NCBI GenBank assembly: GCA_027923505.1
Contig: BROI01000006.1
Location: 620,001 to 684,000, forward strand
Direction: 5' to 3'
Length of the DNA stretch: 64,000 bases
Source: Mayamaea pseudoterrestris
Lineage: Eukaryota > Bacillariophyta > Bacillariophyceae > Sellaphorales > Sellaphoraceae
Shown in pieces: positions 43,985 to 62,820 of this stretch. A program made the translations under genes and the position numbers. The notes beneath the pieces are model-generated. The model searched no databases and was not told the origin of the DNA. It worked only from the letters and a program-made list of their open reading frames with translations. Each line of letters opens with the position of its first letter. Within the stretch, counting starts at the first letter, position 1.

Positions 43985-44180
43985 TACACAATCTCTTTGC
44001 TTGTAACTCTTATTTGAACGTTTCCGTGGTCTAGAGGAACGACGTTGCTGGCTTGTGTCATGATCATGGAAGTGTCGGTTCGGTCGCGAAACAGCTTCGT
44101 GTCTCATCGGTTTTGCCTACGCCGATCGGCGCGCCATCCGTTTTTTCCTCTCACAAAATTCAACTCCAATTTCCATCACC

Positions 44181-44806
44181 ATGGCAAGTCCTCAAGCTCA
44201 AGCGCGCGCCAATGCGCTCAATGCGCAACTGGAGGGAAATGCGCAAACCACCATTGATGAAATAGAGCGACTCTACATTCGACCAGTCGCTCGCAAGGCG
44301 CACGTTTGTGCCGTCAGTTGCTACGACAAGGCTGGCAACAAGGGACCAATGGATGCTTTAAATGCTTGCGTACGAACATGTCAAGGGAGTCATCAACAAG
44401 CGAATAACTTTTTACAAAATGTAAGATGGATTGGTGAAGACGTGGCGCTTTATTGGTTCGTCTTTGGCAATATTGACGAAGTAAGCAGCGACTGCATTGT
44501 GCATTGCAACTTGTAATGCAGTTGCAATATGGAAGCTATGTCATTTTATCTCATCAACATTCTCCTTTCATCCTTCTTTCTATGCCACAGGAAATTAATC
44601 AGTTTCAGAACCGCGTCCATCGCGCCATGGCCGACTGTCAGGACGAAGCCCGCGACCTCATGGTACCTGGCTGGGAGCAGGACGCCAAATTAACCTCCAA
44701 AGTGGAAACGGCGTTACTGTCGTGCATGACCAAGGCGGTGGACAGTCACAGCAAACTGCTCAAGCCAATGAAGGATCGTGTTAGTCAGCAGTTGAAGAAT
44801 TTGTAG
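44181..44806 (+). CDS. FAM136A: FAM136A-like mitochondrial twin-Cys protein
   Basis: Exons 44181-44420 and 44591-44806 join at phase 0 to give 151 residues, close to the family length of about 140. Twin C-x3-C motifs are visible: CAVSC and CVRTC in the first half, and a more diverged pair (ADC and LSC) in the second. NFLQ/NEINQFQNRVHRAMADCQDEARD matches the family's most conserved stretch (shown here across the splice join). FAM136A resides in the mitochondrial intermembrane space and is needed for stability of proteins there. The ATG (caccATGgc) has a strong context. Divergent from the RABL6-like gene. Confidence 0.88.
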
Positions 44807-45268
44807 TTGTACTTGTCGCAGGTTTTGGCTTGGCTTTTTACCTTGCTGGCGGATAGAGATTCTGCTGATTGATGAGCCCATCTAATTGCTGCGCACATCG
44901 AGTAACTCGATGATTAATGACGTAGACGTTGAGAAACTCTAAACTTGCTAAAAGGGAAGCTGCTCGTCCTGAATGGTGCTGTTTTTAAACTTTTCGGATA
45001 ATTCATGTCACCCTCCGGTTATTCGTTTTGCTTGCTAATGGATTGAATCACACCTCATGAGAACATTTCTCGGCGTTCATCTCGTTAGACTCTGTATGCG
45101 AGTATTCTTGGCCAAGCAATTCTGGGCAAGCTGATGGCTGATGCAGATGGTAGATAAACCGAGTGACAATTAGGACACTTAACGTCGTACCGTTACTCAA
45201 TCGCTCATTCTTCACGTCCATCGCATCACTGTTTCGAGCCTCCACCATGACAATGCCATAAAACACTC
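44807..45268. other. Intergenic spacer
   Basis: A 462-bp spacer between two plus-strand genes. A minus-strand frame at 45048-45266 has no signature. Nothing else seen. Confidence 0.5.
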
Positions 45269-47599
45269 ATGAACCCAAAGGCAGATGCTCCTACGGCAGC
45301 AAGACTTTCATTGCACAAGCGCAAGCGCAGAAAGCTATATTATTCAGTCGATGTTTTGACCGACGGTTCGGAATGGACAGGCGACGGCACGCTGTTCCTG
45401 TCCGTCTACAAGGAGTCACCTTATGATGCGGAAGAAGAATCTACAAAGGTCACTTTGTCATCACAATCTGAACGGAATGATGTAGAACATGTTCGAGACG
45501 GCGAGGCTCAACATCAAGTTGACGATAACAAGACTCGCTCACACGTGCCTCCACCATTGGCTCGCTATTCGATGGGAAGCTTGACGGATGTTTTGAGTCG
45601 ATTGGCCTTCGACCAGCGCTTTTCACTGGGAGCAACCCGCGCCTTCTTTGCAGTGAATTCCAGCAACAGCAGTGAGTCTTGCGTCTGTCAAGGACTCGAA
45701 GGCTTGCCGCCGTTGCTGCTGAATCTCAAGCAAGCAGGTGCAGAGCAATTAACCTTGGTGTTGCGTGACGAAGCAACCATGCAAGCCGTCCAAGACACTG
45801 TTCCACTGATTCTTCCGTCGCATCGCTCGCAACACCCTCACGTGCAGCTTTGCAGTGTGCCAGCTGCCAAAGTGGCTGGTGAAACGAATGGACCTTGCTG
45901 GTGGAACGTGCATAGCGATGAATACGTTGTCGTTCATGCCAAGCGATTTCAACAAATCAACAATGATTCAAACGAGAGCGCCAATGAAACAGCGGTATTT
46001 GTCAATAGCGACACAGTGTTGTATTTGATGACATTGCTGCATCATGACGAAGCAGCGCGCAGCGCAAGTCTTGTCGTTGTTCCAGGTGATATGGAAGCAG
46101 AGCGTTTGAACGAAAGCATCCTTCAGCTGCCAGTGCTTGAGAATGGACTTGGCAAATCACCTACAGTCGAGATACGCTGGGGCATTGCTTTCGGAAGTAC
46201 GCTACCAAAGCTAACGACTGCGTCTACAAGTGCTGCTGCTGCTCATTCAGTGTCACTCGATGATAAAATTAGTTGGTATTACACGCAGCCTCGTCCAACG
46301 AATGTGCTCGATCCTGGCTTGCTGGTGCGGGCGCAGCAGCAATCGAAAACGTGGCATGCTGGTCGGCCGCAATACTTTCCATGGAACGAAACGACTGAGA
46401 TTGGTGATGCGAGTTGTGTCCGTCAGTCTGGCATGGATATAATGACTCGATTACACACGGGCTGGTCGCTATTACTAAAGAGCGAGAAGAATGCTTGCTT
46501 GCTCTTTGATCGAATGCGACAGTTAAAGGTAATAACGTCAAGCTCTTTAACGGATCGGTCGTTGTGGCCTTTGAAATGCGATTTTGAAATGGCGTCGTCA
46601 ACTAGTGACGACAATGAAATTGAGCTTGACGACGATGAGTGCGAAGTCAATGACGAGAAAGATAGAAATGACTGCAAAAACTCTTTAATGTCAACGCAGC
46701 TGTTAGTGCTCGGCACAGGATGCGCCGCTCCCTCGCCATATCGAGGATCGTCGGGTCATTGCCTGTTTCTGAGCCCCGATTTTACGTTTGTGTTTGAAGT
46801 GGGTGACGGGTTCTTGACGCAATGGTCGCGCTATAGCAGCCGAAGCTTGTTGACCATACGAGCCATTTGGATCTCTCATGCACATTGGGATCACTATGGC
46901 GGCTTGGCCGCGCTGCTTTTAAAGATTTTTGAAGTAAGACAAGACGTTCGTCGAGAGGAGCGACAACATTGCACGAGCCAAGGGTCAAGGAAACGACAAC
47001 GACAGGAAAGCATCGACCTGCCATTGGTTCTTGCTTGCGGCAAAGTGCTGAAATATCTAGAACAATACTTTGGTGATACAAATAATTACTTTCATGGTCT
47101 TAATATTGCACGGCTATCCAAACAGGCATCGGAATTGCTGTGTCAGCTTACAACTTGCGACCATATTGGAGCAGTGACACATCCAATCACCTTTTTTGAC
47201 ATTGTTCCAATGGACCACTCCTGTTACGACAGTTTTGGGTTTGTTATTGGTCTACATTGCCCCACGCGGCTAGCACCCTTTGTTTTCTGTTTCAGTGGCG
47301 ACACGCGTCCATGCCAGCGATTCGTGCACGTTTGCCGACAACGTGCAGCGCTTTGGAACAACGGATTTGTCGACTTGCTACTTCATGAAGCGACTTTTGA
47401 GGAAAGCGAGAGCGAAATGAGTATCACAAAAAAGCACTCAACCATAAAGGAGGCTATCGAAATTGGCTGGTCAATTCGAGCCGGCAAAATTTTCTTGACG
47501 CATTTCTCGCAAAGATATGCCGCGCCATCGGACCTAGACACGGATACAATTGCATGGACGCCGATGTTCGACGGCGTTTTAGTACCTTTGTTCAATTAA
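45269..47599 (+). CDS. Long-form tRNase Z (ELAC2-type)
   Basis: Intronless, 776 residues, the size of long-form tRNase Z. The C-terminal half is the active metallo-beta-lactamase domain: LGTGCAAPSPYRGSSGHC (about residue 482 on), then the metal-binding SHAHWDHYGG (about 535-544), FSGDTRPC, LLHEATFE and LTHFSQRY, all in the expected order. The N-terminal half is a diverged, inactive copy of the fold that supplies the flexible arm, and starts with DVLTDGSEWTGDGTLFLS. The enzyme removes 3' trailers from pre-tRNA. A Glu/Asp-rich stretch (about residues 440-465) separates the halves. No mitochondrial presequence is obvious. Convergent with phosphodiesterase 1 (74 bp between stops). Confidence 0.9.
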   Translation: MNPKADAPTAARLSLHKRKRRKLYYSVDVLTDGSEWTGDGTLFLSVYKESPYDAEEESTKVTLSSQSERNDVEHVRDGEAQHQVDDNKTRSHVPPPLARYSMGSLTDVLSRLAFDQRFSLGATRAFFAVNSSNSSESCVCQGLEGLPPLLLNLKQAGAEQLTLVLRDEATMQAVQDTVPLILPSHRSQHPHVQLCSVPAAKVAGETNGPCWWNVHSDEYVVVHAKRFQQINNDSNESANETAVFVNSDTVLYLMTLLHHDEAARSASLVVVPGDMEAERLNESILQLPVLENGLGKSPTVEIRWGIAFGSTLPKLTTASTSAAAAHSVSLDDKISWYYTQPRPTNVLDPGLLVRAQQQSKTWHAGRPQYFPWNETTEIGDASCVRQSGMDIMTRLHTGWSLLLKSEKNACLLFDRMRQLKVITSSSLTDRSLWPLKCDFEMASSTSDDNEIELDDDECEVNDEKDRNDCKNSLMSTQLLVLGTGCAAPSPYRGSSGHCLFLSPDFTFVFEVGDGFLTQWSRYSSRSLLTIRAIWISHAHWDHYGGLAALLLKIFEVRQDVRREERQHCTSQGSRKRQRQESIDLPLVLACGKVLKYLEQYFGDTNNYFHGLNIARLSKQASELLCQLTTCDHIGAVTHPITFFDIVPMDHSCYDSFGFVIGLHCPTRLAPFVFCFSGDTRPCQRFVHVCRQRAALWNNGFVDLLLHEATFEESESEMSITKKHSTIKEAIEIGWSIRAGKIFLTHFSQRYAAPSDLDTDTIAWTPMFDGVLVPLFN

Positions 47600-47672: not shown

Positions 47673-50237
47673 TTACCCACCATCGTTCCAATCCTGCTGA
47701 AGATCGATGCCTTCCACCATCCATGAATCTAGGTTGTTCTCGAGAATATCGGAGAATGACAGCCCTGTTTCGGACCCAAAAATACCCATCTCATTCAACT
47801 TTGCGGCGAGAGGCAAAAGGTATTTCTCCATAACTTTGCATTGATTATCGAACCAACTTGGTCGAGGGTCAAATCCTTTCCCATCTTCCGCGGCCAAGAG
47901 TAGTTCCTTGTATAAACATGACATCCATTTGGTCATGTTCTCAAAATACTGCATGTTGTGCGAAACATCGGCGGCTCGAAGCAGTACCTCTATAACTACA
48001 GCTGCCTTTAAATCATCCGGTTCGTCGTAGTCAACGTGATTTTTTGTGTCTTGCATCTCAGTGAAGGTTGAGTGAACCGACATGTCACAGGAGCCACGCC
48101 GCGGATAAATTTCCACAGCCTCGCCCGACAAGTCCATTGACCGTCGGATTCCCAGACGTTTCTTGAAATTTTGAGAAGGACCTGAGCTATGAGTACTGTA
48201 GTTAAGACTCATGCGCCGATGCCCATTTGCCTTGAAGTCTGTCTCGATCGGACCTGTATGATTATGTTCACTGACTTGATGCTCGTCAATACTTGTTCCC
48301 ACCAGCGAGCCAAAGCGCATCGTCAAATTTCCTGTCGAAGCTCGACGAGCAACACCTCGCATGACAGTTGGTCGCGGTCGCGTTGCATCAATGTCAATGG
48401 AATGGGTTTTTTGAACTCCTCGTCGTTGATTGCCGCCTCGCTGATGGTTTGAATTACTGAGAGAACTCTCTGGATTGTTATAAATCCTTGGGATCCCAGA
48501 AATGATGACAGGTTCTTCGTCATCCGATGATGGAGGAGTCAGCGAAAGACTTTCTGAAGAGTCATCATCGTAATCCGCGTCATTGTATTCGTATTGAATG
48601 GGTTGTCGGACAGGCCCTTTGTTGCTTTTTTCATCGTCCGATGAACGATCCGAAATATCCTCGTAATCATCCCCATCGCCATCATTATGCTGATCTGGCC
48701 GTGTCTGGGGCCCTGTAAATTCACGTTTCTTTTGCGCCAAGACAATAGAGTTGGCCGTAACCGATTGAAAAGCACTAGACGCATACGTGTCCATGGACAT
48801 GTAGCTTTGGGTCGACTGCCTACGTGACAGTTTCTGCCGGCTGAATTGTCGCTGCTGCAGCCGCATTGAGTCTTCCGCAAAATGCGACAATTTGGCCATG
48901 GAATCACTACTTATACCAGAGCTGCTCTTGCCGACACCTCGCGCTGGCGGGTTTGACTGCTGCGGTCGGTAACGTTGTGCAACAGAGTCGTAATCAGATC
49001 CGCTCGAAAGTCGACGCTGCAAGGTCGGTTTTGCAGGTGTACGACGTGGACCACCCGCCACTGAATCATTGGCAATGTCCGAAAAGTTGCCCATGCTGTC
49101 AATGGATTCGTTGGAAGCTCTCCGAAGTGGGATGGGATTGTGATGATTGTTTCTGGTGGGCGACTTGAGCATATTGTAACTGTCACTTGTCACGTCCGAA
49201 ACAATACTGCTAATAGAAGCATTGGATCCACGACGATTCAAGCGTCTTACATCTTGATGTTCATTGGGTGAACTCGCCAGTTTATTGGCTCGATGCATGG
49301 ATATTTGCGACGTCACGCTGCCTCGTCGTCCGCCTTCGACCGCATAATTGCTGCCATCAAACATGTTTTGTCGCTTACCAAACGCCGCCTCCTTCCACTT
49401 AGAATTCGAAATTTGACATCGCTCTGGAGAAGCTAGATCCGTCGATAAAACTGATTGGATGACAAGCAAACGACACCGATGGTAGTCACCTTCCGTAGGA
49501 AAGAGTGCATGGTAAAAGTTGCAATACTCTGGACGCAAGAGTTCCGAAAAGGCCAGGTGCAGCGAATGATTCTCACTAATGCTTTGATCATTGTATTGCA
49601 GCGCAAGCTGCGGTTCGTCCATGGCGCGCTGCCGATTGCCAACTCCAGCGTGGTCCACGTCATGGACAAGCGCAGCAAAGAGCAAGGCGAAGAGCGCCAC
49701 AGAATCGCTCCGCAAACCAAATGTCGGCGGTCTCTGCTTGCCTTGACGCGGCCAAAAGTCTCGCGAAAGCATGAATTCCAGAAACTTGTTGGCGCTGACG
49801 CAAACATGGACAGCATGCATGTAGTTGTGAAAGGGCAAGTCGCGGTGGAGAGAAAGCATTCTGGTGACATATGCTCCTGTTTCTTGTATAGCTTGCATGG
49901 AGACGTAGCTGGACCAGTCAATATCACTCGCCGTATCACCAGTCAATAATTCTCTGCAAATTGTCGATGTACTTAAATCAGAAAATGTATTCAGCGGCGC
50001 ATTGATGGCAAAGAGTCGAACAATGAAGAGGCTCGTGACGCGTTCGACCCCAATATCCAAAGACTCTTCCTGTTCGTCTCCAATTTCGTCAGCGTCATCA
50101 TTTAATAGCGATCCCCATTCTTGTAGCGACAGCTCCAACGCTTGCATGGCTATATTTCGAGTTAAGGTAGAGTAGGAGCTGCGTGTATCATCATTCTGGT
50201 CTTGGCCGCAATCTTCACCTTCACTATTGTCGGTCAT
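47673..50237 (-). CDS. 3',5'-cyclic nucleotide phosphodiesterase 1, catalytic domain split by a 450-residue insertion
   Basis: Intronless, 854 residues from ATG at 50237 (the upstream extension starts at TTG). The first catalytic half (about residues 55-290) has FHNYMHAVHV, the metal motif HDVDHAGVGNR, YNDQSISENHSL and STDLASPE. The second half (about 738-854) has AADVSHN, in which Asp is the fourth metal ligand, and SWFDNQ, which holds the invariant nucleotide-binding Gln. Between them is a disordered insertion with seven RRxS sites and the motif RLGIRRSMDLSGE. All catalytic ligands are present, so it should hydrolyse cAMP or cGMP; specificity cannot be told. No transmembrane segment. It is divergent from the two-pore channel gene (430 bp between starts), so a shared promoter region is possible. 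Confidence 0.9.
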   Translation of the reverse strand: MTDNSEGEDCGQDQNDDTRSSYSTLTRNIAMQALELSLQEWGSLLNDDADEIGDEQEESLDIGVERVTSLFIVRLFAINAPLNTFSDLSTSTICRELLTGDTASDIDWSSYVSMQAIQETGAYVTRMLSLHRDLPFHNYMHAVHVCVSANKFLEFMLSRDFWPRQGKQRPPTFGLRSDSVALFALLFAALVHDVDHAGVGNRQRAMDEPQLALQYNDQSISENHSLHLAFSELLRPEYCNFYHALFPTEGDYHRCRLLVIQSVLSTDLASPERCQISNSKWKEAAFGKRQNMFDGSNYAVEGGRRGSVTSQISMHRANKLASSPNEHQDVRRLNRRGSNASISSIVSDVTSDSYNMLKSPTRNNHHNPIPLRRASNESIDSMGNFSDIANDSVAGGPRRTPAKPTLQRRLSSGSDYDSVAQRYRPQQSNPPARGVGKSSSGISSDSMAKLSHFAEDSMRLQQRQFSRQKLSRRQSTQSYMSMDTYASSAFQSVTANSIVLAQKKREFTGPQTRPDQHNDGDGDDYEDISDRSSDDEKSNKGPVRQPIQYEYNDADYDDDSSESLSLTPPSSDDEEPVIISGIPRIYNNPESSLSNSNHQRGGNQRRGVQKTHSIDIDATRPRPTVMRGVARRASTGNLTMRFGSLVGTSIDEHQVSEHNHTGPIETDFKANGHRRMSLNYSTHSSGPSQNFKKRLGIRRSMDLSGEAVEIYPRRGSCDMSVHSTFTEMQDTKNHVDYDEPDDLKAAVVIEVLLRAADVSHNMQYFENMTKWMSCLYKELLLAAEDGKGFDPRPSWFDNQCKVMEKYLLPLAAKLNEMGIFGSETGLSFSDILENNLDSWMVEGIDLQQDWNDGG

Positions 50238-50667
50238 GCTGGCGAGGATACGAGCAGCAGCGTACAACTCAGCGGCTTTCTTGCCCAAAATCAAGGCTCG
50301 ACAGTTCAAACAGGTATCAATTATTTATTTTCGAGCGTATGAGCTGTATTGTTCAAGTTGATCCCGGTGAAAGAGTGAGGAAGGTGACTGCTTTTTGCTG
50401 CATTCTTTGGATTCCGGTCTTTCTCAATACTCGTAGTGTCGCACTAGTTACCGCTCCGTCATGAATCTTCCGTTTCCGTTGCTGTTCACGCTGGTACATT
50501 TTCTACGTGAGCTACGCAGCTTCCACCAAGGACGAGGAAGATTTTGTTCACGCACACACATCCACGATACAAAAGCAATGGCGACCATAATTTAGATCGC
50601 GCCTCAACTACAGTATCAAGTTAGACCGAAAAGAAAGAGGGCGAAATTCTTGAAGGTCTATTTCATC
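50238..50667. other. Divergent promoter between phosphodiesterase 1 and two-pore channel
   Basis: A 430-bp region between two start codons and a candidate bidirectional promoter. No coding frame or repeat of note. Confidence 0.5.
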
Positions 50668-53600
50668 ATGTCATCGTCCTATCTTCCGCTGCTTTTCTTC
50701 CGACGCGACGACGACGACAATGATGAGCAGCAAGGCGACGACGCAGCACAAAGCAGCAGCAAGGACAATTCACTTGACGAGCAGAACCAGAACTCCGACC
50801 AAGACGACGAGGAGGAGCAAGGCTCTTCATCTTGGCATACGCGCCATGCTAGTAGCATTACTATGGAGTATTCCGATACGGATGATGACGACCGTCGTCA
50901 TTTTTCAGTGCCGAGCAGCAACAACAGTCCATTGACAATAAATTCATCCTGGCTATCAGGTCGCATTTACAGCGCTCCAGATGACGCTAGCGATAAAACC
51001 AGTCGAGATGTTAGCTGGATGAAGCAATTGGCCGAGTCATTTCGGCCAAAGGACAAGCAGTCGTCCAAGACTCGAGCGAGGAAGCATCACCGCCGAGTCT
51101 CATCGCAACGAGAGTATCCTCAAATCATGTCGCCGAGTACTAGCTCCATACTAGCGAACAGCAAGAACTTCTTTAGTCCGAGCAATGGCAGCAATCCACA
51201 GAGTGAAGCGTCCCCTTTGCTGGGTTTATCTTTTGCAAGCAATGCAACGTCAATGTCGACCTTTGCAGGCGCAACGAAAAGCAAGCCTCCACTGGCGAGC
51301 AGCAGCAATAATAACAAGGACGACAATGACGAAACATTTAAGAAGAAGACAAAGCTGCATCCATTTTATACGGCGCTAGCAGCCTCCTTTTTGCAAGACT
51401 ATGAGGCGAATCGAAAGCCAGTACTTTGTCGAGACGTTGCCAAAATTACCTGGCATCAGCTGCAGCTGCACCATATCAAGTATTCTGGCTGGTTATATTC
51501 ATTAAACTTATGCATTGCAACGCTTGCACTCTTTGTATCGAGTGCTTTGGAGGAACAAGGAAACGAATACACAAGTTACGATGCAACTGCTGGAGAAGGA
51601 AGCATTCCCAAGCGCCTTTGGCTGACTGGTTTGAATGCTTACGCCATTTGCGTCTTGGCCGTGGACCTTTGGATCCGTAACCAGCTGCAACCAACCGAGG
51701 CAACGCCAATGACGTCAGTCATGCCGCGACGAATTACTGCCTCATTTGCAAATCCTACAAAGCTGCAGCGTCAGTCAAGCAAGGGACAACAGCAACGAGC
51801 AAATCTACCGATGCAGCAACCAATTAAGAATGAGCAGGCAACGGGCGATGATGCGCTCGTCAAACCCTTGATACTATTTCTGCTGGTTCTTGGTTTAGAA
51901 ACCACGGCGAGACTTGGGATTGCCTACTTGGCATTGAGCAAGGCTGACGACGATGGCAGCGACGCTGCGTTTGACAATGTCACGCAATCGCATGCTTTGC
52001 ATGGTCAAGCACAGCAGCAGCAACAACAACAGCCAATGGTTCTCTTTTCGTCCCTACTCAAGCCTTTGGTCTTGTTTTACGTAAGCCATCGAGCGCGGAA
52101 TGCTCTGGAAGCCTTGGGTCGCATTATGCGAATTGTAATTCGCGTTTTGTTCATGGAGTTGTTGGTGAGTCTGCCTCAATAATAACGACAAGCTTTGCTC
52201 TGCAAACGTGCTTGTATGGGAAAAACACTCACCTTGTATCAACCATTTAGGTCATTTTCATCTTTGCTGCCATTGCATGTCGCCTCTTTAACGAGTTTGA
52301 AGCATTCAAAAATTTATCCAGATCATGGCTCTCTCTCTTCGAGCTATCAACAACAGTGGTCAACCCATCATTGTGGATGCCAATGGTACGTCGCTTCTGT
52401 TCGTGCGATTGCAACGACGAGTCGATCCCTTCCGTCTTTCGTTTCACTAACCCGCATGTTTTCGAAGTATCAAGCCTCGAAGTATTCGGCATTCTTCTTC
52501 ATTTTCTTCATTGTCACATCTGTCCTTTATCTGCATTCGCTGGTTCTTTCAGTTGTCTTTCAAACCTACGTTCTGGCTGCTTCTGAAATTCATGAACGCA
52601 GCGTTGCTGACAGAGAAGAAGCAATTCACCGTTCGTACTTGGCGTTGCGGCAGCACGATACTAGTCAAGGACTCATCTCGACGGAGAGTGTGCGAGAGCT
52701 GCTCTCCCAATTAAGACCTCATTACAATGTCTATAAGATAGATGCTTTGGTGGAAATTGTCGATCCGCATAGAAGGTCGGTGGTCGATTATTCCACTTAT
52801 CGAGTAAGTCCATGTCGTTGGTCACACGAGATTTGAGCTCCTCAATATTTACTGACTTCTCACTCTGTGATGTGCCGTTCCCGTATGATAGACGAGAATC
52901 CGACAAGCATTGAATGCCTCCATCCGGACAACGAGAACAGCGTCCGCCGTGGCCATGAGTGTCGAGCTACTCGCCGTCATAGTCGCCATTGTCAATTTTG
53001 CGTACGTTATACTGGTCTCTATTGCTTTCGATATGAAGTGGTTTGACAGCATGGAAGCTACACTGGGATGCATTATTACCGTGGTTGCAGCGTCAGAACT
53101 TGTAGTCCGTTTCAACCCGCTTCGAATAAGCGATTTTACTCCGTTGACTCGTTTGAATGTTTGCTTTGACGGTTTGGCTCTCTTGGCTGCTCTAATATCT
53201 ACCTTTGGGATGGTGCTTCATGCGAGGGGCGAGCCTTTGGCAATGGAATTGATTTTATCTGGCAGAGCGATTGATATTTTCCGGGTCATGCGATTCTTTT
53301 CCATGTTTCGCGACGTGGTTCGTCGAAGTGCCGATGTTCTACCAGTGTTGATCGGGCCTTGCATCCTTGTTGCTACGACGCTCCACGTGTTCGTGTATGT
53401 GGGCATGGCGCTTTGGGGCGGCGCGGTTAATATTGGGCAGCGACATGAGCTCGCGCAGCTTTACAACTTAAACAACTTCAACAGCTACCAGGAAGGCTTA
53501 GTCACAATGTTTAATGTTCTCGTGGTCAACGATTGGCACGCTATTGCGGAGGTCTTTCTCCACGCGAAACGGTGTTCGAGCACATATATTGTCATGCCCT

Positions 53601-54399
53601 TTTTTGTGATCGGAAATTTGATGGGTGTCAGCATAATGCTAAAGTAAGTTTTTGAGGAAAGGCAATACTCGGATCTGCTTGAACATGCCACTTATACTGT
53701 GAGCACCTCTGGTCTCTCTTCCTTAGCGTCGTGACGGCTTTCTTTGTACAAGCATTCGTCACGAAACTGGACGACGATGCGATTGTCGCGCCTATCAACG
53801 CCCTCAAATTGGTTCAGCCCTCCAAGGCACCACCAGACTCGGGACTCCGAAATTCTGAAAATGCGTCGTTTCGTGTCTCTTCAAGCACCAGCAGTATATA
53901 CGACCAGGGTAGTGATCAGGGCGCAGATGCCGACTCAGAGGGCAGCTCTGACTCGGACTTCCTTGAGTTTGATGTCTACGAGAGACAAGGCTATGACAAG
54001 GTGATGCAGACCGTCGCTGGTGGCTCGTATACTCAGTCAAATATTGCACTGGACGTCAGCGAGTATCTCGGGACGTTCGAAAAGCTTGTTCCCGACCGTG
54101 AAGCAGTTGGCTACCATATTTGCGACCAGCTAACAATGGAGCGATTCGGCAATCACCTTTTTATGGCCATGGCGGAGGGTTTTGTTGAGTCCAACGAACT
54201 TCATGTGATCGTCAGCGAAATGCATGCAGAACTAATAGCTCTCGCTGATAGCCCTCCGGACAAGAATCGCTCGCTGATCCGCACATATTCCCATCACCAA
54301 CGGCCTGACCAAGAATCACTAGAGATCACCGCAGCTCTCTTGCGTAAACATCCAGCTCTTTCTCTACTGGTTTCACGCCGTCGATTGAAACAAGCTTAG
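50668..54399 (+). CDS. Two-pore cation channel (TPC family)
   Basis: Exons 50668-52164, 52251-52385, 52468-52803, 52892-53643 and 53727-54399 join in frame to give 1130 residues. The first 270 residues are cytosolic and Ser/Asp-rich. The first six-helix channel unit ends with a pore SWLSLFELSTTVVNPSLWMP (about residues 520-540) and the helix FFFIFFIVTSVLYLHSL. A linker follows (about 590-660) with an EF-hand-like stretch, as in plant TPC1. The second unit has its pore in NNFNSYQEGLVTMFNVLVV, then NDWHA (about 853). Both pore patterns match TPCs, which pass Ca2+ or Na+ across vacuolar or lysosomal membranes in response to voltage, Ca2+, NAADP or PI(3,5)P2. The fourth helix of unit II keeps Arg residues (RVMRFFSMFRDVVRRS). 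N-terminal splice forms cannot be excluded. Confidence 0.85.
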
Positions 54400-54618
54400 T
54401 TTGCGCTGCGTCAGCAGGTCGCGCCCATCGCTTTTTACAACAAGTATATTAAGTAGTGTAAATGTAAAATATTGTTGTCAGTATCATAACCTTAAACCCA
54501 ACCGATACATAGATACTACACATAATCAACCATCATGCTCGACAGAGACGTCGACGACGTAAAATATTTTCTTTGCCACCTCAACCACATCCCACCACGT
54601 GGGTCGATCCAACTACGA

Positions 54619-56876
54619 TTATAAAAACAAACGATCCGGCTCCGTCACTTGTTTCTCCATGTCAGCTATACTTCCGCCCAGTTTCGCCTCAACATCTGCG
54701 GCGTCACTTCCAGTTGCTCCACCTTCCATCACGCCGAGGTGTTCAATCCATTCGTCGTTGCCCGGAAACATGGCGAATCCATCTTGGATCATCTTGTTTG
54801 TCGATTGCGCTCCTTCGACAAGCCAACGATCGCGGCTGCTTTCGACGACTTCACCAAACATAGATCCCAAGGGCCCGTACGCACCCGTTGCATCCAGCCG
54901 CTGAGAAAGAGGAGCCAAGTAGAACTCCAAGAATCCAATCTGGTTTTGGAACCAGTTCTCTTTGGGATCAGGTCCACGGTTCTCCAACATGGCCTGTGAA
55001 AATTGAAGGGTTAGCACTGACAGGTTTAAGCCGCTTCGATTACACAAAGTCACATACCTTGCGCATTTCAATGTAGAGGCGGCCGGCCCACTTGCACATT
55101 TGCTCGTACCCCTGCAAGTTTTGGCTGACATCCGCCGCAGTCACTGAAAAAGCGAACATAAAGGTTAGTTCCCACTGCTGAAAAATCACTTAATATAATA
55201 GCACCACGCAACTCACTTATGAGGTCCATCAATACGGCAGCCTTTAGGTCATCAACTTCATCATCCACTTCATCCTTGAACAGACTGGTCCGACGTGTTG
55301 TTCTTCTGTATGTCTCGACCGTTTCTCCGGTCAAGTCCATAGAGACTCGAATACCGAGTTTCTTATTCTTGTTCAGACCAAAAGAGTTTCCAATAGATCC
55401 TAACGACCCAGTAACAAGTTTCACTGTATTCTTCATGGGATCAACAGTATACTTCCTGGCTTGATTAAGCATATCCTTGGATGCCGCAGGTGAATCTGCC
55501 GTGTCGTCATCGTTTTCGCTAGTCTTGGTGATCCCTGAGTTACGTTTGAGAGATTTGCTCATGGCCGACATGCCTCCAGTCATGGAGCTCACCATGCTCT
55601 TGGGAGGTTTGGGTGACAATTTCGCACCCCCAGCAGCTTCTTGGTCAGCGGTCGATGTAGACTTGACTCCTACCACACCTCCCACTCCCTTGAACACCTT
55701 GGAGACTCCGTCCATGCTGGCCTCTCCAATCTTTTTGACGCCGCTAACACCGAAATTGGCAACATTCTTGACGCCACTGACACTGGCGTCCGCCACCGTC
55801 ATGACGCCTCCCGAAACGTTTTGCACGCCCTTGTTCAAGGCTTTCACCGTATTCATGGGCATGCGCCGAACGTGCTCCAGCATGTTTTCTTCCACCTCAT
55901 CTTCCGTGAGCGCTGCATCACTTGGCAACGAGGGATTCTGAAATGCCTCTATATACTTGCTCTTTGCCAATTGTACATTCGAAGGTGACGCAATATCCGT
56001 GTTGAGAACCAACGAAAGGACTTTGGAACGAAACTCGTGATACTCTGTTGACACGGGAAAGATTGTCTCTCGAAGCTCCTTGTAGTCGGGCTTGAGCAGC
56101 TCCTGAAAGCCAATGAACAAACTCCGCTGCTCGGCAATCGACGTGTCATTGTACAAAATGGCAAGCTCATCATCCTCCAGGGCCAGCTGTCGGTTCGGCA
56201 AGCCCCGATGCTCCACGTCGTGAATAATGGCGGCAAACACCAACGCCAGCAAGCTCAGCGCATTTTGGCGCAGCCCAAAACTGTTGCAGCGATGCACCCA
56301 CAGCATGTCGAGCAACTTGTTGGTGCTAATTGTGACATGAGTCGCATGCGAAGCATTATGGTAAGGCACTTTTGGATCATACTTGATCAAAATGCTGCGG
56401 ACAAACTGCTCCACTTGGCGAACGACCGTTTCGGAAATTGGCCAATCGCACTGCTCCTGCAAAAAGACGGTGCAAATGTTGGTCGTGCTCCAGTTTGTTT
56501 CCGGAAAGGGCGACTCCTCCATAAAGCTCGACTGCTCCGACTGCAGCAGCAAGAGTTGTTGCTGCTGCTTGTAGTCAAACTCGCATTCGGAGAACTCGTT
56601 AGTGTCTAAAAGTTCTTCCTGCTGCTCCTGCTGCTTTTTCAGCAGCTCCTCCTGCCGCGTTTGCTTGGCAATTTCCATGGCGCGAGCCACGACGCGTACC
56701 AAAAGCAAGGATGTGACTCTCTTGACATTGATTTCAAAGTCGTCCGTGGCGGCAGTGATTGGATGATCGCCCTGACCAAGCTGCGTCCAATGCTGCTCCG
56801 AAAGGGCGAGTGCAATGGCGGCATATGGAGGCGTTGACGTCGGCGTCGCGGAGTTAGAGGAGGAAGATGACGGCAT
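54619..56876 (-). CDS. 3',5'-cyclic nucleotide phosphodiesterase 2, with 11-residue amphipathic repeats
   Basis: Exons 55217-56876, 55058-55143 and 54619-54993 join in frame to give 706 residues; ATG at 56876 (upstream frame starts at TTG). The first catalytic half has YHNASHATHV, HDVEHRGLPNRQ, YNDTSIAEQRSL and NTDIASPS; the second begins LKAAVLMDLI/MTAADVSQNLQGYEQ across the first join and includes NWFQNQIGFLE with the invariant Gln. The insertion (about residues 310-540) contains four or more 11-residue repeats such as SGVKNVANFGV and SGVKKIGEASM, then RRTS and the motif KLGIRVSMDLTGE. Such 11-mers form lipid-binding amphipathic helices in other proteins. A polyQ/Leu run lies near residue 105. 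Convergent with the two-pore channel, divergent from phosphodiesterase 3. Confidence 0.9.
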
Positions 56877-57488
56877 GATACTTGAGCTCAGTGGCTTGAT
56901 CGGTGTGAAGATCTGTAATGCTTGAAGCTTGGTAACTTGAAAGGCAGTGAGCAATGCAACGATGAACAGTCGTCTTGGTGCTGTCAAGGTGCGGAAGGAG
57001 TGTTTGTTATGTGACTGTATGGCGCTTGCCTTACTGTGCTGAAGTACCAAAAGCTTAGCTTGACACAACCTTTCAACCTTTTACGACTCCAAGATACGGA
57101 GAAACTATCGTTTACTCCAACTTGTGTAGTCCCGCCGATCGTGAGAAACGTGTCGGCTGAACCTGTGAAAACGATTTTGATTTCTGTCATGGTGCCTTCA
57201 GAAACGGCACTGGAAGATATGAATGTCTTTTTATGTCGCACCGAAGTTGAAGTGCGTCAAGAATACTTAAGCCTTGCGGAGTTTTGTGACGCACGTGACA
57301 CGGGAGGCTGCGGTCCATTCCCGCATCAACCATGACCCTTTTTTTCTTGTCACACTCGATCTTGCGTCTTGACCATTGCTCGTCGCGACGTGCATATCTA
57401 ACTATTACAACTGCACTTGCTTTCTTCACTCGCTTAATAGTATTTTTTACAATTTTGTTGCATATTGCATTGATTCTTTGGTAACAGC
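56877..57488. other. Divergent promoter between phosphodiesterases 2 and 3
   Basis: A 612-bp region between two divergent paralogues. The open frame continues upstream of phosphodiesterase 2 to 57068 but only from a TTG, so it is taken as leader. No repeat or other gene seen. Confidence 0.5.
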
Positions 57489-59439
57489 ATGGCATTGACG
57501 GAGGAAGAGTCATCAATTGCAGCTGCAGCAGATACTAATATGGAACCAGCCACGTTGGCACTCGCCCTCGTCTCTCAGGATTGGAGAACCATTGGTTTGA
57601 ACGTTGACGACCCGCTCACGGCTGCAACAAGCGATACCAGTCTCATTATTGATCGACTATATGCCATTCTTCTAATTCGGCTCGCGGCCATTGTGGCGCC
57701 GCTGGGAACCTTTAGCGATTTGAGTGTCTACAGCGTCAGCTCCAAAATTATCAAGATGAAGACATGGCCGGACGCATTGACCAGCAAGGTTCGCGCGCAG
57801 CTCCACGACTTTGTGAGTCGCATCATTAAAGGCTACAAGAATAATCACTACCATAACCAGGAGCATGCCTGTCACGTGACACTGAGTGCCTGCAAGTTGA
57901 TGGATTTGTTTTTGTATGGAGACTTGAATGACATTGAATCGGACTACTTGATTAGCACTAACAAGAATCCATCCTTTGGCTTGCGGAATGATCCGCTACT
58001 GCTCTTCGTCGTGGTCTTTAGTGCATTGATTCATGACGTGGAGCATCAGGGACTGCCGAATCGGCAATTGGCGATGGAAAAGGATCGATTAGCGGTGCTT
58101 TACAATGATCAAAGCATTGCCGAAAATTGGAGCTTGTACGTTGCCTTTAGCGAGCTGCTGCAAAATGATTTTACGGAGCTTCGTCAAGCCATGTTTACAT
58201 ATGTTGCTCCGCTGGAAAAGTCTGCTGCTGATGCTGACGCAGTAGCTAATGATGTTGCTGACAACCAAGCATTGGACGCGCATAGTCAACACTCGCATCA
58301 AGTTGCAGCAACGACGCCACCACCACCTCCTTCGTACGACGATCTTTACCAACGGTTTCGTCGTTTCACAGTCAATCTCGTATTGGCCACGGACATTGCC
58401 TCGCCCGAAAAGTCGCAACTTGCCAAGAGTAAATGGAAGGAGGCCTTTGGCGACTCGTTTGAAACGGTGGAGCGCAAAGTACGCCATGAAATGCGTCGGG
58501 CGTCCATTGGCATGACTGGCAAAGTGATTGGAAGCAACAGCAATCGCCGGGGAAGCAACATTTCCGACGTTTCCGCAAGCCCCGGTTTGTTGGCTGGCGC
58601 AGCAGCGCCTGCGAATGGAGACCACAACGATGACGACAGTTTGAGCGTCACGCCGGAGCATTCGGAGAGCGACGATTTGGACGTTTCGCATACGAACAGT
58701 CATCAGCAATCACCAGTTTTACATCAACCCCAGCAACGCAAGGTGAGCATGGGCTACGGACCAGGTGCACCTTGTCGCTTTGAGCGACGCATGTCAACCT
58801 CGACGAGCAAGTCGAGTAGCAAGTATCGTCAGCGACTTGGCATTCGCCGGTCCATGGACTTGTCGGGTGAGACAATTGAAGCGTATCAGCAGACTGCGTC
58901 CTCGTCAGTGTCGTCGTCCAACATGAATCATCATCACTATCAATCCAGTGGAGGCGCCACGGTGTACTCGGTTGACGTTGATTCGGACTTGCCGGATGAA
59001 CTTAAAGCGACGGTTGTCATGGAGGCAATCATGACGGCCAGTGACGTTGCGCATAATTTGCAAGGGTTTGAGCAAATGAAAAAGTGGAGCAACAAACTGT
59101 ATCTTGAGTTGCGCAAGGCGTACGTGGCCAAGCGTGGGGTTGATTGTTCGCCCAAGGTGAGTAGCGTATTTGTGCAGGACAACCAACTGGATTACATATT
59201 GTTACCATAAGCTTACTTTTATGCTTCTCTCATTCTATCAGTGGTTTGAAAATCAAATTGGCTTTTTGGAGTCGTACTTGCTGCCGCTGGCACGAAAGCT
59301 TGAAGATACTGGGGTCTTTGGAGAGACTGAATTTGCGCGCAATGTGGAGCAGAATCGAGACCTTTGGTTGACGCGCGGCTTTGAAATATCGGAACAAATT
59401 GTCAAGGAAGGCTTGGAGCTGTATCCCGAGCCAGAGTAA
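57489..59439 (+). CDS. 3',5'-cyclic nucleotide phosphodiesterase 3
   Basis: Exons 57489-59156 and 59242-59439 join at phase 0 to give 621 residues. The first catalytic half shows YHNQEHACHV, HDVEHQGLPNRQ, YNDQSIAENWSL and ATDIASPEKSQ, with an extra Ala/His/Pro loop (about 240-280) before the last. The insertion (about 316-500) holds RRAS, RRGS and RRMS sites and the motif RLGIRRSMDLSGE. The second half has LKATVVMEAIMTASDVAHN and, after the join, WFENQIGFLE with the invariant Gln. It is more like phosphodiesterase 2 than 1 in catalytic motifs (HDVEH.GLPNRQ in both). The last intron falls just before the WFxNQ block, close to the position of the last intron of phosphodiesterase 2. Confidence 0.9.
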
Positions 59440-59485: not shown

Positions 59486-61315
59486 TTAAGCGGCGTAAAC
59501 AAGTATAGCGTAGACGACCATGGACGGCAAACAAGCCGACAGGATTGTAACGATCATGTAAGGATAAGCATGGTTTGTTTGCTTATGAACAAAGTCGTTC
59601 AGCTCGAAGCAAAAAGTAGATACAGTCGACAGGCAGCCAGCAAAGCCAATCCGTGTAACTCTGACGAAAGCAATAATCCAGTAATCGCGCAGATAGCTTT
59701 CCTGCATACGATACTCCAGAGCAACGCAAATAATACTGACAAGACTGCCAAGCACATTGGCCGTAAACGTTCCCAAAGGAAACCAAGGATACTGCGAGAG
59801 CGATCCATTCAAGGCTCCAAGCTTCCACCGCAGACATGCTCCAAAAGGAGCTACCAACATGGCCAATGCCATGGTTCGGTAAGTGCGAGTAGTTGACTCG
59901 TCGGAAGACAAAAAGACGGCAGCAATGGCGAGGGAGCAGATTATGAACCATAGGACAAACGAAGCGACCGGAAGCGTTAGCCATCGGCTTGGAGCAACGT
60001 TTGACTTGTCCAGCAACATTTTGCTCCAACTTTGAAGTCCAGTTGGTGAGCAGAGTTTGGACTTTTCATTAACATAGGCTTGGAGCGCACCAATGTCCCA
60101 TGCCTCGTCGCGGGCCATGGCTTCGGCATGCTTTGGTATCGGAACATTGAGAATCAGCGCCGCTCGTTCAATCTCAACCAGAATCGGCAACAGCGTATTG
60201 TTCACTCTCCTAGAACTTTTGGTTGATTCTCTCCATTGAATCAAGCAATCAGTGTTCAATGGTACAATTTCATCCGTCTGCGATAAGGGTTCCATGTCTA
60301 AATCAAGTAGCACTCGACGCTCATAGTCTGGAAGCTCACAGTGAATGTAGACACCTTCCTCCCTCTTGACTCTTACCAGCTGCGCCTCCTCCACAAGCGT
60401 CGGGTTGACGTATCCGTGAATGAACCGGGCCAGAGACTTTCCAGCGGCAAAAGATCCTTGAGCCGTCTCCATACCAACAATGTAGCCGAGCAAGGCCAAC
60501 CAGATTTGAGTATTCAAATTGCTCCCAGTACCAAAAATGAGTACCACCATGGCCGAGTTCCAGCTGCTAAAAGTTGTCAGCGAGCCGCAAAAACCAGTTT
60601 TAAAAGCATTGTGTAATATTTCCATGCTCTGAAAGGGATGATCCGGTTTGAGCCATGCCCTGCGACAAACAAGCGAGACGTCAGGTTCGTAGCAAGCAAC
60701 ACGTCATTTCTATCGCTCGATCCTAGATTTTAAATCACTTACAATGGCATCGGCAGGGCTAGATGCAAGTATTCTCCATTCACAACCATTCCCATCAGGA
60801 AGCAACCAAGCATGTTCGCTGGAAGGTCGCTAAAAATGACACCACCTTCTTGCAGAGTATCTCCATCCTGCGTGACGCAAAGCGGAGCTCCACTGGACAA
60901 CCAGCCAACTGTACCTGGATTCGCACACTCCTCGCCAAAGAGTTGGGCGACGATCATGCGACAAAACGCCCCGAGAATGGCGCCGACGCTAATGTAGCAA
61001 GCCTGGACCCACAGCAGACGAGACCATCGTTTGCGATCGCGAGCTAAATCGTCTTCGTCGTCATCCGAGACTGTAAATCATAATGCAGATTACTATCCAT
61101 CAGTTATGTCAATGAATAGTCTAGTCAACGAAAGATTCGCGCTTGCTCGTACCTCGTTGAAAGTCGGAGTGTTCAGCATCGTCTTTTTTGAAAAGCACAT
61201 CTTCTTCATCCAGCTGCCGATACTCGGCTCCAATCACTTGTTGCTGCTGTCCATCATCAACATTAAGTGATGGCAGCAGCTGGTCAATGCTTGTAGTCTT
61301 TGAAGGGTTGTCCAT
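59486..61315 (-). CDS. Two-domain fluoride exporter (FEX/CrcB family)
   Basis: Exons 61153-61315, 60743-61070 and 59486-60659 join in frame to give 554 residues. After an acidic 65-residue N-terminus, domain 1 has GAILGAFCRM, PANMLGCFLMG and TGFCGSLTTFSSW. A cytosolic linker of about 140 residues and a linker helix (SFVLWFIICSLAIAAVFL) follow. Domain 2 then has GACLRWKLG, TANVLGSLV and GFAGCLSTVSTF. Both domains keep the pore Asn and the TFSS/TVST region that lines the fluoride path. Bacterial CrcB is a dual-topology dimer of one domain; eukaryotic FEX fuses two inverted domains through the linker helix, as here. It would expel F- across the plasma membrane. The first domain is only visible once exons are joined. 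It abuts the satellite block. Confidence 0.88.
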
Positions 61316-61429: not shown

Positions 61430-62820
61430 ATTAACATGGTCCGGCAAAGGTCTAACCCAGTCACATTGCAGTCTATTGTGACACTAGCTAGGCATGAAAA
61501 TAGCTCAAAAGTTCCTGGCACCATTGCTAGATTACTGGAGGGGTAGATAAGATGTTCATTTTTGCTCCAATGCTTGCAGCTATGACATAGCTGGACCAAT
61601 GGAGGTGCAGAAAATTGCTCAAAATTGCTCGTATTGCTCAAAATTGCTCAAAAGCTCCTGGCAACATGGCTGGATCACTGGCGGGGCAGATTAGATGCTC
61701 AGTCTTGCTCAAATGCTTGGGGCTATGACATCGCTGGACCAGCGGAGGTGCAGAAAATTGCTCAAAATTGCTCGTATTGCCCAAAAAAATTGCTCAACCC
61801 CACTGAAATTTGCTCAGAAGCTCCTGGCACCATTGCTGGACTACTGGAGGGGTAGATGAGATGCTCAATCTTGCTCGAATGCTTGCGGCTATGACATAGC
61901 TGGACCACTGGAGGTGCAGAGAATTGCTCAAAATTGCTCGTATTGCCCAAAATTGCTCAACCTCCCTGAAATTTGCTCAAAGCTCCTGGCACCATTGCTG
62001 GACTACTGGAGAGGAAGATGAGATGCTCAATCTTGCTCCAATGCTTGCGGCTATGACATAGCTGGACCACTGGAGGTGCAGAGAATTGCTCAAAATTGCT
62101 CATATTGCTCAACCTCACTAGAAATTGCTCAAGTGTTCCTGGCACCAAAGCTGGACCACTGGTGGGGCAGATGAGATACTCAACCTCACTCAAATGCTTG
62201 GGGCTATCACATAGCACAACAAATTGCTCAAAATTGCTTGTATAGCTCAACCCCACTTTAAATTGCTCAAATGCTCCTGGCACCATGGCTAGACTACTGG
62301 TGGGGCAGATGACATGCTCAGTCTTGCTCAAATGCTTGTGGCTATGATATAGCTGGACCAATGGAGGTGCAAAGAATTGCTCAAATTGCTCATATTGGTC
62401 AACCTCACTGAAGATTGCTGAAATGCTCCTGGCACCATGGCTGAACTACTGGTGGGGCAAATAAGATGCCAAGTCTGCTCAAATGCATGCACTTTGACAT
62501 AGCTAGACCAAATGGATGTGCAAAGAATTGCTCAAAATTGCTCATATTGCTCAACCTCACTAGAAATTGCTCAAGTGTTCCTGGCACCATAGCTGGACCA
62601 CTGGTGGGGCAGTTGAGATACTCAACCTTACTCAAATGCTTGGGGCTATGACATAGCTGGACCAGTGGAGGTGCAGAGAATTGCTCAAAATTGCTCATAT
62701 TGGTCAACCTCACTAGAAATTGCTCAAAAGCTCCTGGCACCATAACTGGACCACTGGTGGGGCAGATGAGATGCTCAACATCACTCAAATGCTTGGGGCT
62801 ATCACATAGCTGGACCAATG
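61430..62820. repeat. Tandem satellite A, unit about 152 bp, nine copies
   Basis: A shared landmark, [GC][CT]TCCTGGCA, occurs at about 61511, 61654, 61820, 61982, 62135, 62273, 62425, 62577 and 62730, so units are 138-166 bp and mostly 152-153 in the right half. Each unit contains runs of AATTGCTCAAAATTGCTC and two copies of a CTGGACCA-x-TGG block, which implies that the unit itself grew from a smaller repeat. Copies are diverged, with small insertions and deletions. A diverged fragment of satellite B lies at 61456-61495, at the left edge. Open frames across it are a by-product of the repeat. Confidence 0.88.

Follow-up and report, generated by a model that had tools for sequence, protein, structure and literature searches.

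A conserved linear motif in the long inserts of three stand-alone diatom phosphodiesterases is a candidate kinase-docking site

How a cyclic-nucleotide signal is ended and controlled in diatoms is little known. A pheromone-induced cyclase/phosphodiesterase ties cyclic nucleotides to diatom sexual signalling (available text of PMC4726125), and cAMP has been tied to the CO2 response of diatoms in work cited in the accessible part of PMC3727952. We analysed a window of 64,000 nucleotides of the diatom Mayamaea pseudoterrestris (assembly GCA_027923505.1, contig BROI01000006.1, positions 620,001 to 684,000 of the forward strand), and all positions below are those of this window. The stretch from 47673 to 59439 encodes three stand-alone class I phosphodiesterases (PDEs), here called PDE1, PDE2 and PDE3. 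Their catalytic halves are separated by inserts that differ greatly in length and sequence, yet one short block is shared by all three. The question raised by this locus is why this block has been kept and what it may do.

The inserts, delimited by SK[WY][KI]EA(A)F on one side and D[DE]LKA on the other, contain one copy of the block each, with the common consensus [RK]LGIR[RV]SMDL[ST]GE (Table 1). Ten of the 13 columns were identical in the three proteins, whereas the best three-way match of 13 in 300 composition-keeping shuffles of the inserts was 3 in 7 shuffles, 4 in 286 and 5 in 7; only values below 4 could be undercounted, as the count was built up from pairs that agree at 4 or more positions. 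When the block was removed, the best three-way match left in the inserts was 4 of 13. At the nucleotide level, the back-translated block pattern with up to 3 mismatches was matched three times within the window, compared with a shuffled mean of 0.01. A sequence-only reading of this DNA had described the shared LGIR-[RV]-SMDL-[ST]-GE, insert lengths of about 450, 235 and 187 residues, and a distance of 25–60 residues from the block to the second catalytic half. These descriptions agree with the measured insert lengths (Table 1) and distances: from the end of the block, D[DE]LKA is 34, 23 and 41 residues away in PDE1, PDE2 and PDE3, respectively, and the A[AS]DV of the second metal-binding half follows at 48, 37 and 55 residues. 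The extent of 13 residues given in that reading was too short, since the conserved part comes nearer to 17–19 residues (LGIRxSMDLxGExxExY), with 12 of 19 columns identical.

The block was the most conserved gap-free stretch of 13 columns in the full alignment of the three proteins. The runner-up stretches, around HDVEH, YNDQSIAE and TDIASP, had at most 8 identical columns, so that the block exceeds even the catalytic motifs. Pairwise identities in the 19-residue block were 68, 79 and 68%, against 44–54% in the catalytic part and 20–28% in the remaining insert as aligned. At the codon level, the four-fold degenerate third positions within the block differed at 5 of 6, 6 of 8 and 6 of 6 sites in the three pairs. 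Because the identity of the block tops that of all other stretches while its four-fold sites differ, the alignments indicate that selection on the protein, rather than recent copying, has preserved its amino acid sequence.

Table 1. Positions of the phosphodiesterase genes, their inserts and blocks, and neighbouring features in the window
Feature	Position	Strand	Description
PDE1	47673..50237	(-)	854 residues from first plausible Met; no intron, single open frame; PDEase_I E 7.7e-28, split over two stretches; metal and Gln motifs present
PDE1 insert	48018..49379	(-)	454 residues, Ser/Arg/Asp-rich, 8 RRx[ST] sites
PDE1 block	48120..48158	(-)	RLGIRRSMDLSGE
PDE2	54619..56876	(-)	inferred exons 56876-55217, 55143-55058, 54993-54619 (two introns)
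PDE2 insert	55254..55940	(-)	229 residues
PDE2 block	55323..55361	(-)	KLGIRVSMDLTGE
PDE3	57489..59439	(+)	inferred exons 57489-59156, 59242-59439 (one intron); 621 residues
PDE3 insert	58449..58994	(+)	182 residues
PDE3 block	58833..58871	(+)	RLGIRRSMDLSGE
PDE3 extra insert in first catalytic half	~58197-58325	(+)	Ala/Asp-rich, ending PPPPPSYDD
N-terminal conserved region, PDE1	~49950-50150
N-terminal conserved region, PDE2	~56640-56830
N-terminal conserved region, PDE3	~57550-57720
DUF842 protein	44064-44516	(+)
Metallo-beta-lactamase-fold protein	45251-47599	(+)
Ion-channel gene	50596-53647	(+)	Ion_trans E 4.3e-10 (frame 52892-53647); pore stretch VVNDWH
CrcB-type domains	59489-61077	(-)	two stretches in frame 59489-60703; a weaker one in 60739-61077, below the Pfam cut-off
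Tandem array	61497-62820		units of ~153-162 bases, ~3 to 9 copies by row

The main frames of PDE1, PDE2 and PDE3 matched PF00233 with 98.2, 67.8 and 72 bits, all above the curated cut-off of 24.8, and an NCBIfam scan of the three PDE frames gave no match. The introns of PDE2 and PDE3 were assigned not from transcripts but from their GT..AG borders and from the reading frame that their removal restores; the last-exon frames of these two genes had no Pfam match on their own and were placed by alignment. The motifs HNxxHAxH, HDVxH, A[AS]DV and WFxNQ are all present in the three proteins, which are predicted for this reason to look like active enzymes. We take the Asp of the second half to be a metal-binding residue and the Gln to belong to the purine pocket of class I PDEs. 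The three PDEs share a further conserved region, about 60 residues long, ahead of the catalytic core (ALALSxQxW...TAATxD...RVTSLLLVRL), and it had no Pfam match. The extra insert of PDE3 in the first catalytic half was not seen in PDE1 or PDE2.

The block was then sought in the whole genome (30.6 Mb, 41 contigs), in searches that score only the best candidates from an initial pass. When up to 2 mismatches were allowed, a 35-base pattern for LGIRxSMDLxGE had three matches, in PDE1, PDE2 and PDE3, and the reversed control gave no match. A 28-residue protein query, followed up to an E value of 10, returned the same three genes only. With one mismatch allowed, the core RxSMDLxGE gave three exact matches (PDE1–3) and six with one mismatch; the latter look like chance, since the reversed control gave five. 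The domain PF00233 itself had 33 matches in 30 loci, three of which are PDE1–3. All of the other 27 loci are preceded, on the same strand, by a Guanylate_cyc match 412–857 bases upstream and are regarded as cyclase-PDE fusions. For PDE1–3, none of the 58 PF00211 matches fell on their contig (C6), and no cyclase domain was found in the Pfam scan of their frames. The cyclase-PDE loci are clustered, with eight PDE loci on contig C20, five on C11 and four on C9, and amount to a large expansion of cyclic-nucleotide turnover.

When the 27 cyclase-PDE loci (about 3.3–3.8 kb each) were searched in all frames, never more than 6 of the 13 block residues were found. Their linkers at the insert site have 12–26 residues, and 26 of the 27 have 12–16. 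A tree was built, without the insert, from PDE1–3 and 20 cyclase-PDE rows, and in it PDE1–3 formed one side of a branch with a support of 100/100; a 21st row was excluded as too short, and the long branches of PDE1 and PDE2 carry a warning of a false join. When the first catalytic half of PDE2 was used as a query, which contained an error, PDE1 (46%) and PDE3 (56%) came next after PDE2 itself, followed by cyclase-PDE proteins at 33–41%. In viral and prokaryotic contig collections, neither relatives of the PDEs nor matches to the block pattern were found, which is uninformative on other diatoms. The block is most safely described as a linear motif under selection, carried by the phosphosite-rich inserts of a separate diatom PDE group.

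What such a motif may do was approached from known docking peptides. The kinase interaction motif (KIM) consensus is quoted as (V/L)X2(R/K)(R/K)X3-6L, with attribution to MacKenzie et al. 2000, in the available part of PMC1379644, and the accessible parts of PMC12699188 and PMC7291338 describe an ERK-docking KIM that the catalytic unit of PDE4 carries on a beta-hairpin. Over their full lengths, PDE1 and PDE3 had one match each to this consensus, and in both it was LGIRRSMDL in the block. Among random 19-mers of insert composition, 61 of 20000 matched. The segments of human PDE4B and PDE4D that were compared (216 and 215 residues) also had a single match each, 30 residues before ADLS. In an alignment of one cyclase-PDE protein of this genome with PDE4B and PDE4D, its short linker, which is the site of the insert, fell on this stretch of PDE4. 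We take this stretch to be the ERK-docking KIM, and the position is supported by the fact that the consensus matches exactly once in each PDE4 segment, at that place. Since the KIM match lies at the KIM position of PDE4, docking of a kinase is our first choice for the function of the block. A MAP kinase with the TEY motif is encoded on contig C21, with MAPK7 as its best PDB match (E 6.3e-86).

The inserts are also rich in putative phosphorylation sites. The inserts of PDE1, PDE2 and PDE3 contain 8, 2 and 3 copies of RRx[ST], the form preferred by PKA- and PKG-type kinases, compared with 0, 0 and 1 in the rest of these proteins. In total, 13 sites were counted in 865 insert residues (about 15 per 1000) and one in the other 1316 residues. 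Elsewhere, there were 6 sites in the 6942 residues of 21 cyclase-PDE rows and 11 in the 8779 residues of 15 other window frames (at least 300 residues each; the PDE1 and PDE2 rows were subtracted by hand). The excess in the inserts was significant for each of them in plain shuffles (p <=0.0014). The genome encodes proteins that combine cyclic-nucleotide-binding and kinase domains, and because of this a feedback loop of such kinases onto PDE1–3 is possible.

These observations can be joined into one proposal. In it, PDE1–3 form a small local family of class I cyclic-nucleotide PDEs, all stand-alone, with a long insert in place of the loop that precedes the second metal-binding half. We infer that this insert is probably disordered and may act as a regulatory region, combining many basophilic kinase sites (RRxS/T) with a single conserved linear motif. 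LGIRxSMDLxGExxExY would then be a docking peptide that recruits a kinase to the enzyme and may thereby affect its activity; the best guess for this partner would be a MAP kinase.

Several results weigh against this proposal. The KIM consensus was not matched in PDE2, which has RV, with Val for the second Arg, where two basic residues are required. The docking consensuses of Bardwell and of Kornfeld matched the block in none of the three PDEs. A simpler docking form fitted the start of the block in PDE1 only, and a very loose form fitted all three. Such consensuses are cheap: the 21 cyclase-PDE rows contained 3 KIM, 18 Bardwell and 7 Kornfeld matches. The conserved Gly, Ser, Asp, GE, E and Y of the block lie outside a KIM, and the alignment columns around the PDE4 loop are of low confidence. 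The inserts showed no enrichment of [ST]P sites, with counts of 4, 2 and 3 where shuffles gave means of 5.2, 1.6 and 1.9, and none of these nine sites had Pro at position -2. As to the basophilic sites, when RR pairs were kept in the shuffles, the excess of RRx[ST] was clear for PDE1 only (p 0.005; 0.12 for PDE2 and 0.06 for PDE3), and for the less strict forms, R.[ST] and R..[ST], shuffle tests of the inserts showed no consistent excess. With PDE2 as an exception and [ST]P sites not enriched, kinase docking stays well short of certain. From these sequence comparisons, we judge the block to be a kinase-docking motif of some kind with a confidence that falls slightly short of an even chance, and a MAP-kinase KIM in particular is doubtful. 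Among the three functions proposed in the sequence-only reading, namely an autoinhibitory helix, a kinase site and docking, the last nevertheless fits best, with the consensus in two of the three proteins and at the PDE4 loop.

An intramolecular role ranks second after kinase docking, as a real but lesser possibility. The block would fold back as a cap or brace of the active site, to be released from the catalytic domain once the neighbouring RRxS sites are phosphorylated. The strict conservation, higher than that of the catalytic motifs, would suit such a cap, and the hydrophobic pattern with two Gly and GE exceeds what a short docking motif usually needs. The tether of 23–41 residues to the second half could presumably span to the active site, and PDE4, which is capped by its upstream conserved region 2 (UCR2) or its C-terminal region, offers an analogue (available text of PMC12699188). 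The predicted structures lend this role no support, although they are too poor to bear on the packing of the block. AlphaFold models of PDE1 (5-row alignment; mean predicted local distance difference test score, pLDDT, 45.8) and of exon 1 of PDE3 (3-row alignment; mean pLDDT 48.6), both made from shallow alignments, showed the block without a helix or other secondary structure at a pLDDT of about 30, and nearly all of the insert was below 50. Against such a role, the block is missing from the cyclase-PDE proteins, so the fold can do without it. Foldseek with the poor PDE1 model found no match at E <=0.001; PDE3A and PDE4D came first, at E 0.53 and 0.58.

It is unlikely that the block itself is a phospho-switch, in which a basophilic kinase would phosphorylate the Ser of R-x-S-M-D and the S/T four residues on would be a possible priming site. 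The consensus forms R-x-S-M and S-x-x-x-[ST] are found in all three blocks, and the inserts around them are rich in RRx[ST]. However, the preferred form RRxS/T is found in none of the blocks, and phosphosites alone rarely preserve 10 of 13 residues. The kinase site suggested in the sequence-only reading thus fits less well than docking, as R-x-S is present in all three blocks and RRxS in none. A form of the Aurora type, R-x-S-[ILVM], also fits all three blocks, and is very short. The calmodulin 1-5-10 form fitted the block of PDE2 only.

A targeting or scaffold motif for another conserved partner, such as the cytoskeleton, a membrane protein or a phosphatase, seems less probable still. Strong conservation amid freely varying inserts would suit any single conserved partner, but the simplified forms for PP1 (RVxF), B56 (LxxIxE), calcineurin (LxVP/PxIxIT), 14-3-3 and DSGxxS were unmatched. 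That the block is a functionless remnant of a recent duplication, as the adjoining genes and their single group in the tree might suggest, is highly improbable and close to refuted by the low identities of the catalytic part and the other insert given above and by the largely changed four-fold sites, including those of the block.

PDE2 and PDE3 are arranged head to head, and PDE1 is separated from PDE2 by an ion-channel gene (Table 1), which by eye resembles a two-pore or voltage-gated cation channel. The location of this gene amid those for cyclic-nucleotide PDEs could be meaningful or coincidental. Beside PDE3 lie CrcB-type domains of the fluoride channel family, followed by a tandem array, from which similar reading frames continue up to 64000. 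On the other side of the locus, the metallo-beta-lactamase-fold protein is by eye tRNase Z-like, and the DUF842 protein is presumably FAM136-like. Silicon transporters are also encoded in the genome (PF03842, best E 2.0e-197) and, together with the cyclase-PDE fusions, mark it as that of a diatom.

The motif strings of the block were not found in the literature searched, and no described motif of this kind was recognized by title or the start of the abstract. The PDE family, phospho-feedback on PDEs and KIM docking are of known kinds; as far as the searches go, their combination in an internal insert of stand-alone diatom PDEs is undescribed. A PDE group apart from the cyclase-PDE fusions, with a putative regulatory motif and a cluster of candidate kinase sites, would provide a concrete handle on signal control in diatoms, as a single peptide can be probed for its partner.

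Among known systems, the bifunctional guanylyl cyclase/PDE of Seminavis robusta belongs to the same PDE family as PDE1–3, and the combination of cyclase and PDE is known only from diatoms to the knowledge of its authors (available text of PMC4726125); 27 loci of this kind are present in the genome studied here. PDE1–3 differ from them in having no cyclase match on their contig, in their separate branch of the tree, and in a long insert with the block in place of linkers of 12–26 residues without it. The second relative is human PDE4. By sequence, PDE1–3 are class I PDEs like it, and its KIM-consensus match, as that of PDE1 and PDE3, lies in the loop between TD[IML] and the metal-binding Asp. 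The UCR1 of PDE4 receives feedback through phosphorylation by PKA/PKG (available text of PMC12699188), and in PDE1–3, as in PDE4, the RRx[ST] sites are concentrated outside the catalytic core. Those of PDE1–3 are predicted from sequence and lie in an internal insert, whereas the sites of the UCR1 type in PDE4 are N-terminal. In the established nomenclature, PDE3 and PDE5 are further enzymes under such PKA/PKG phospho-feedback. Unlike PDE4, PDE1–3 had PDEase_I only and no UCR in the Pfam scan of their frames, and their loop has 182–454 residues instead of a short hairpin, with the KIM consensus in two of three proteins and no PxSP site in the inserts. It seems rather unlikely, on the present comparison, that the same class I PDE loop carries a MAP-kinase docking peptide in diatoms and animals and has moved in the diatom into a long phosphosite-rich insert. 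If this were true, the MAP-kinase input to cyclic-nucleotide breakdown through this loop would be very old or would have arisen twice, and with a MAP kinase as the partner the loop would be a control point shared by the PDEs of distant eukaryotes.

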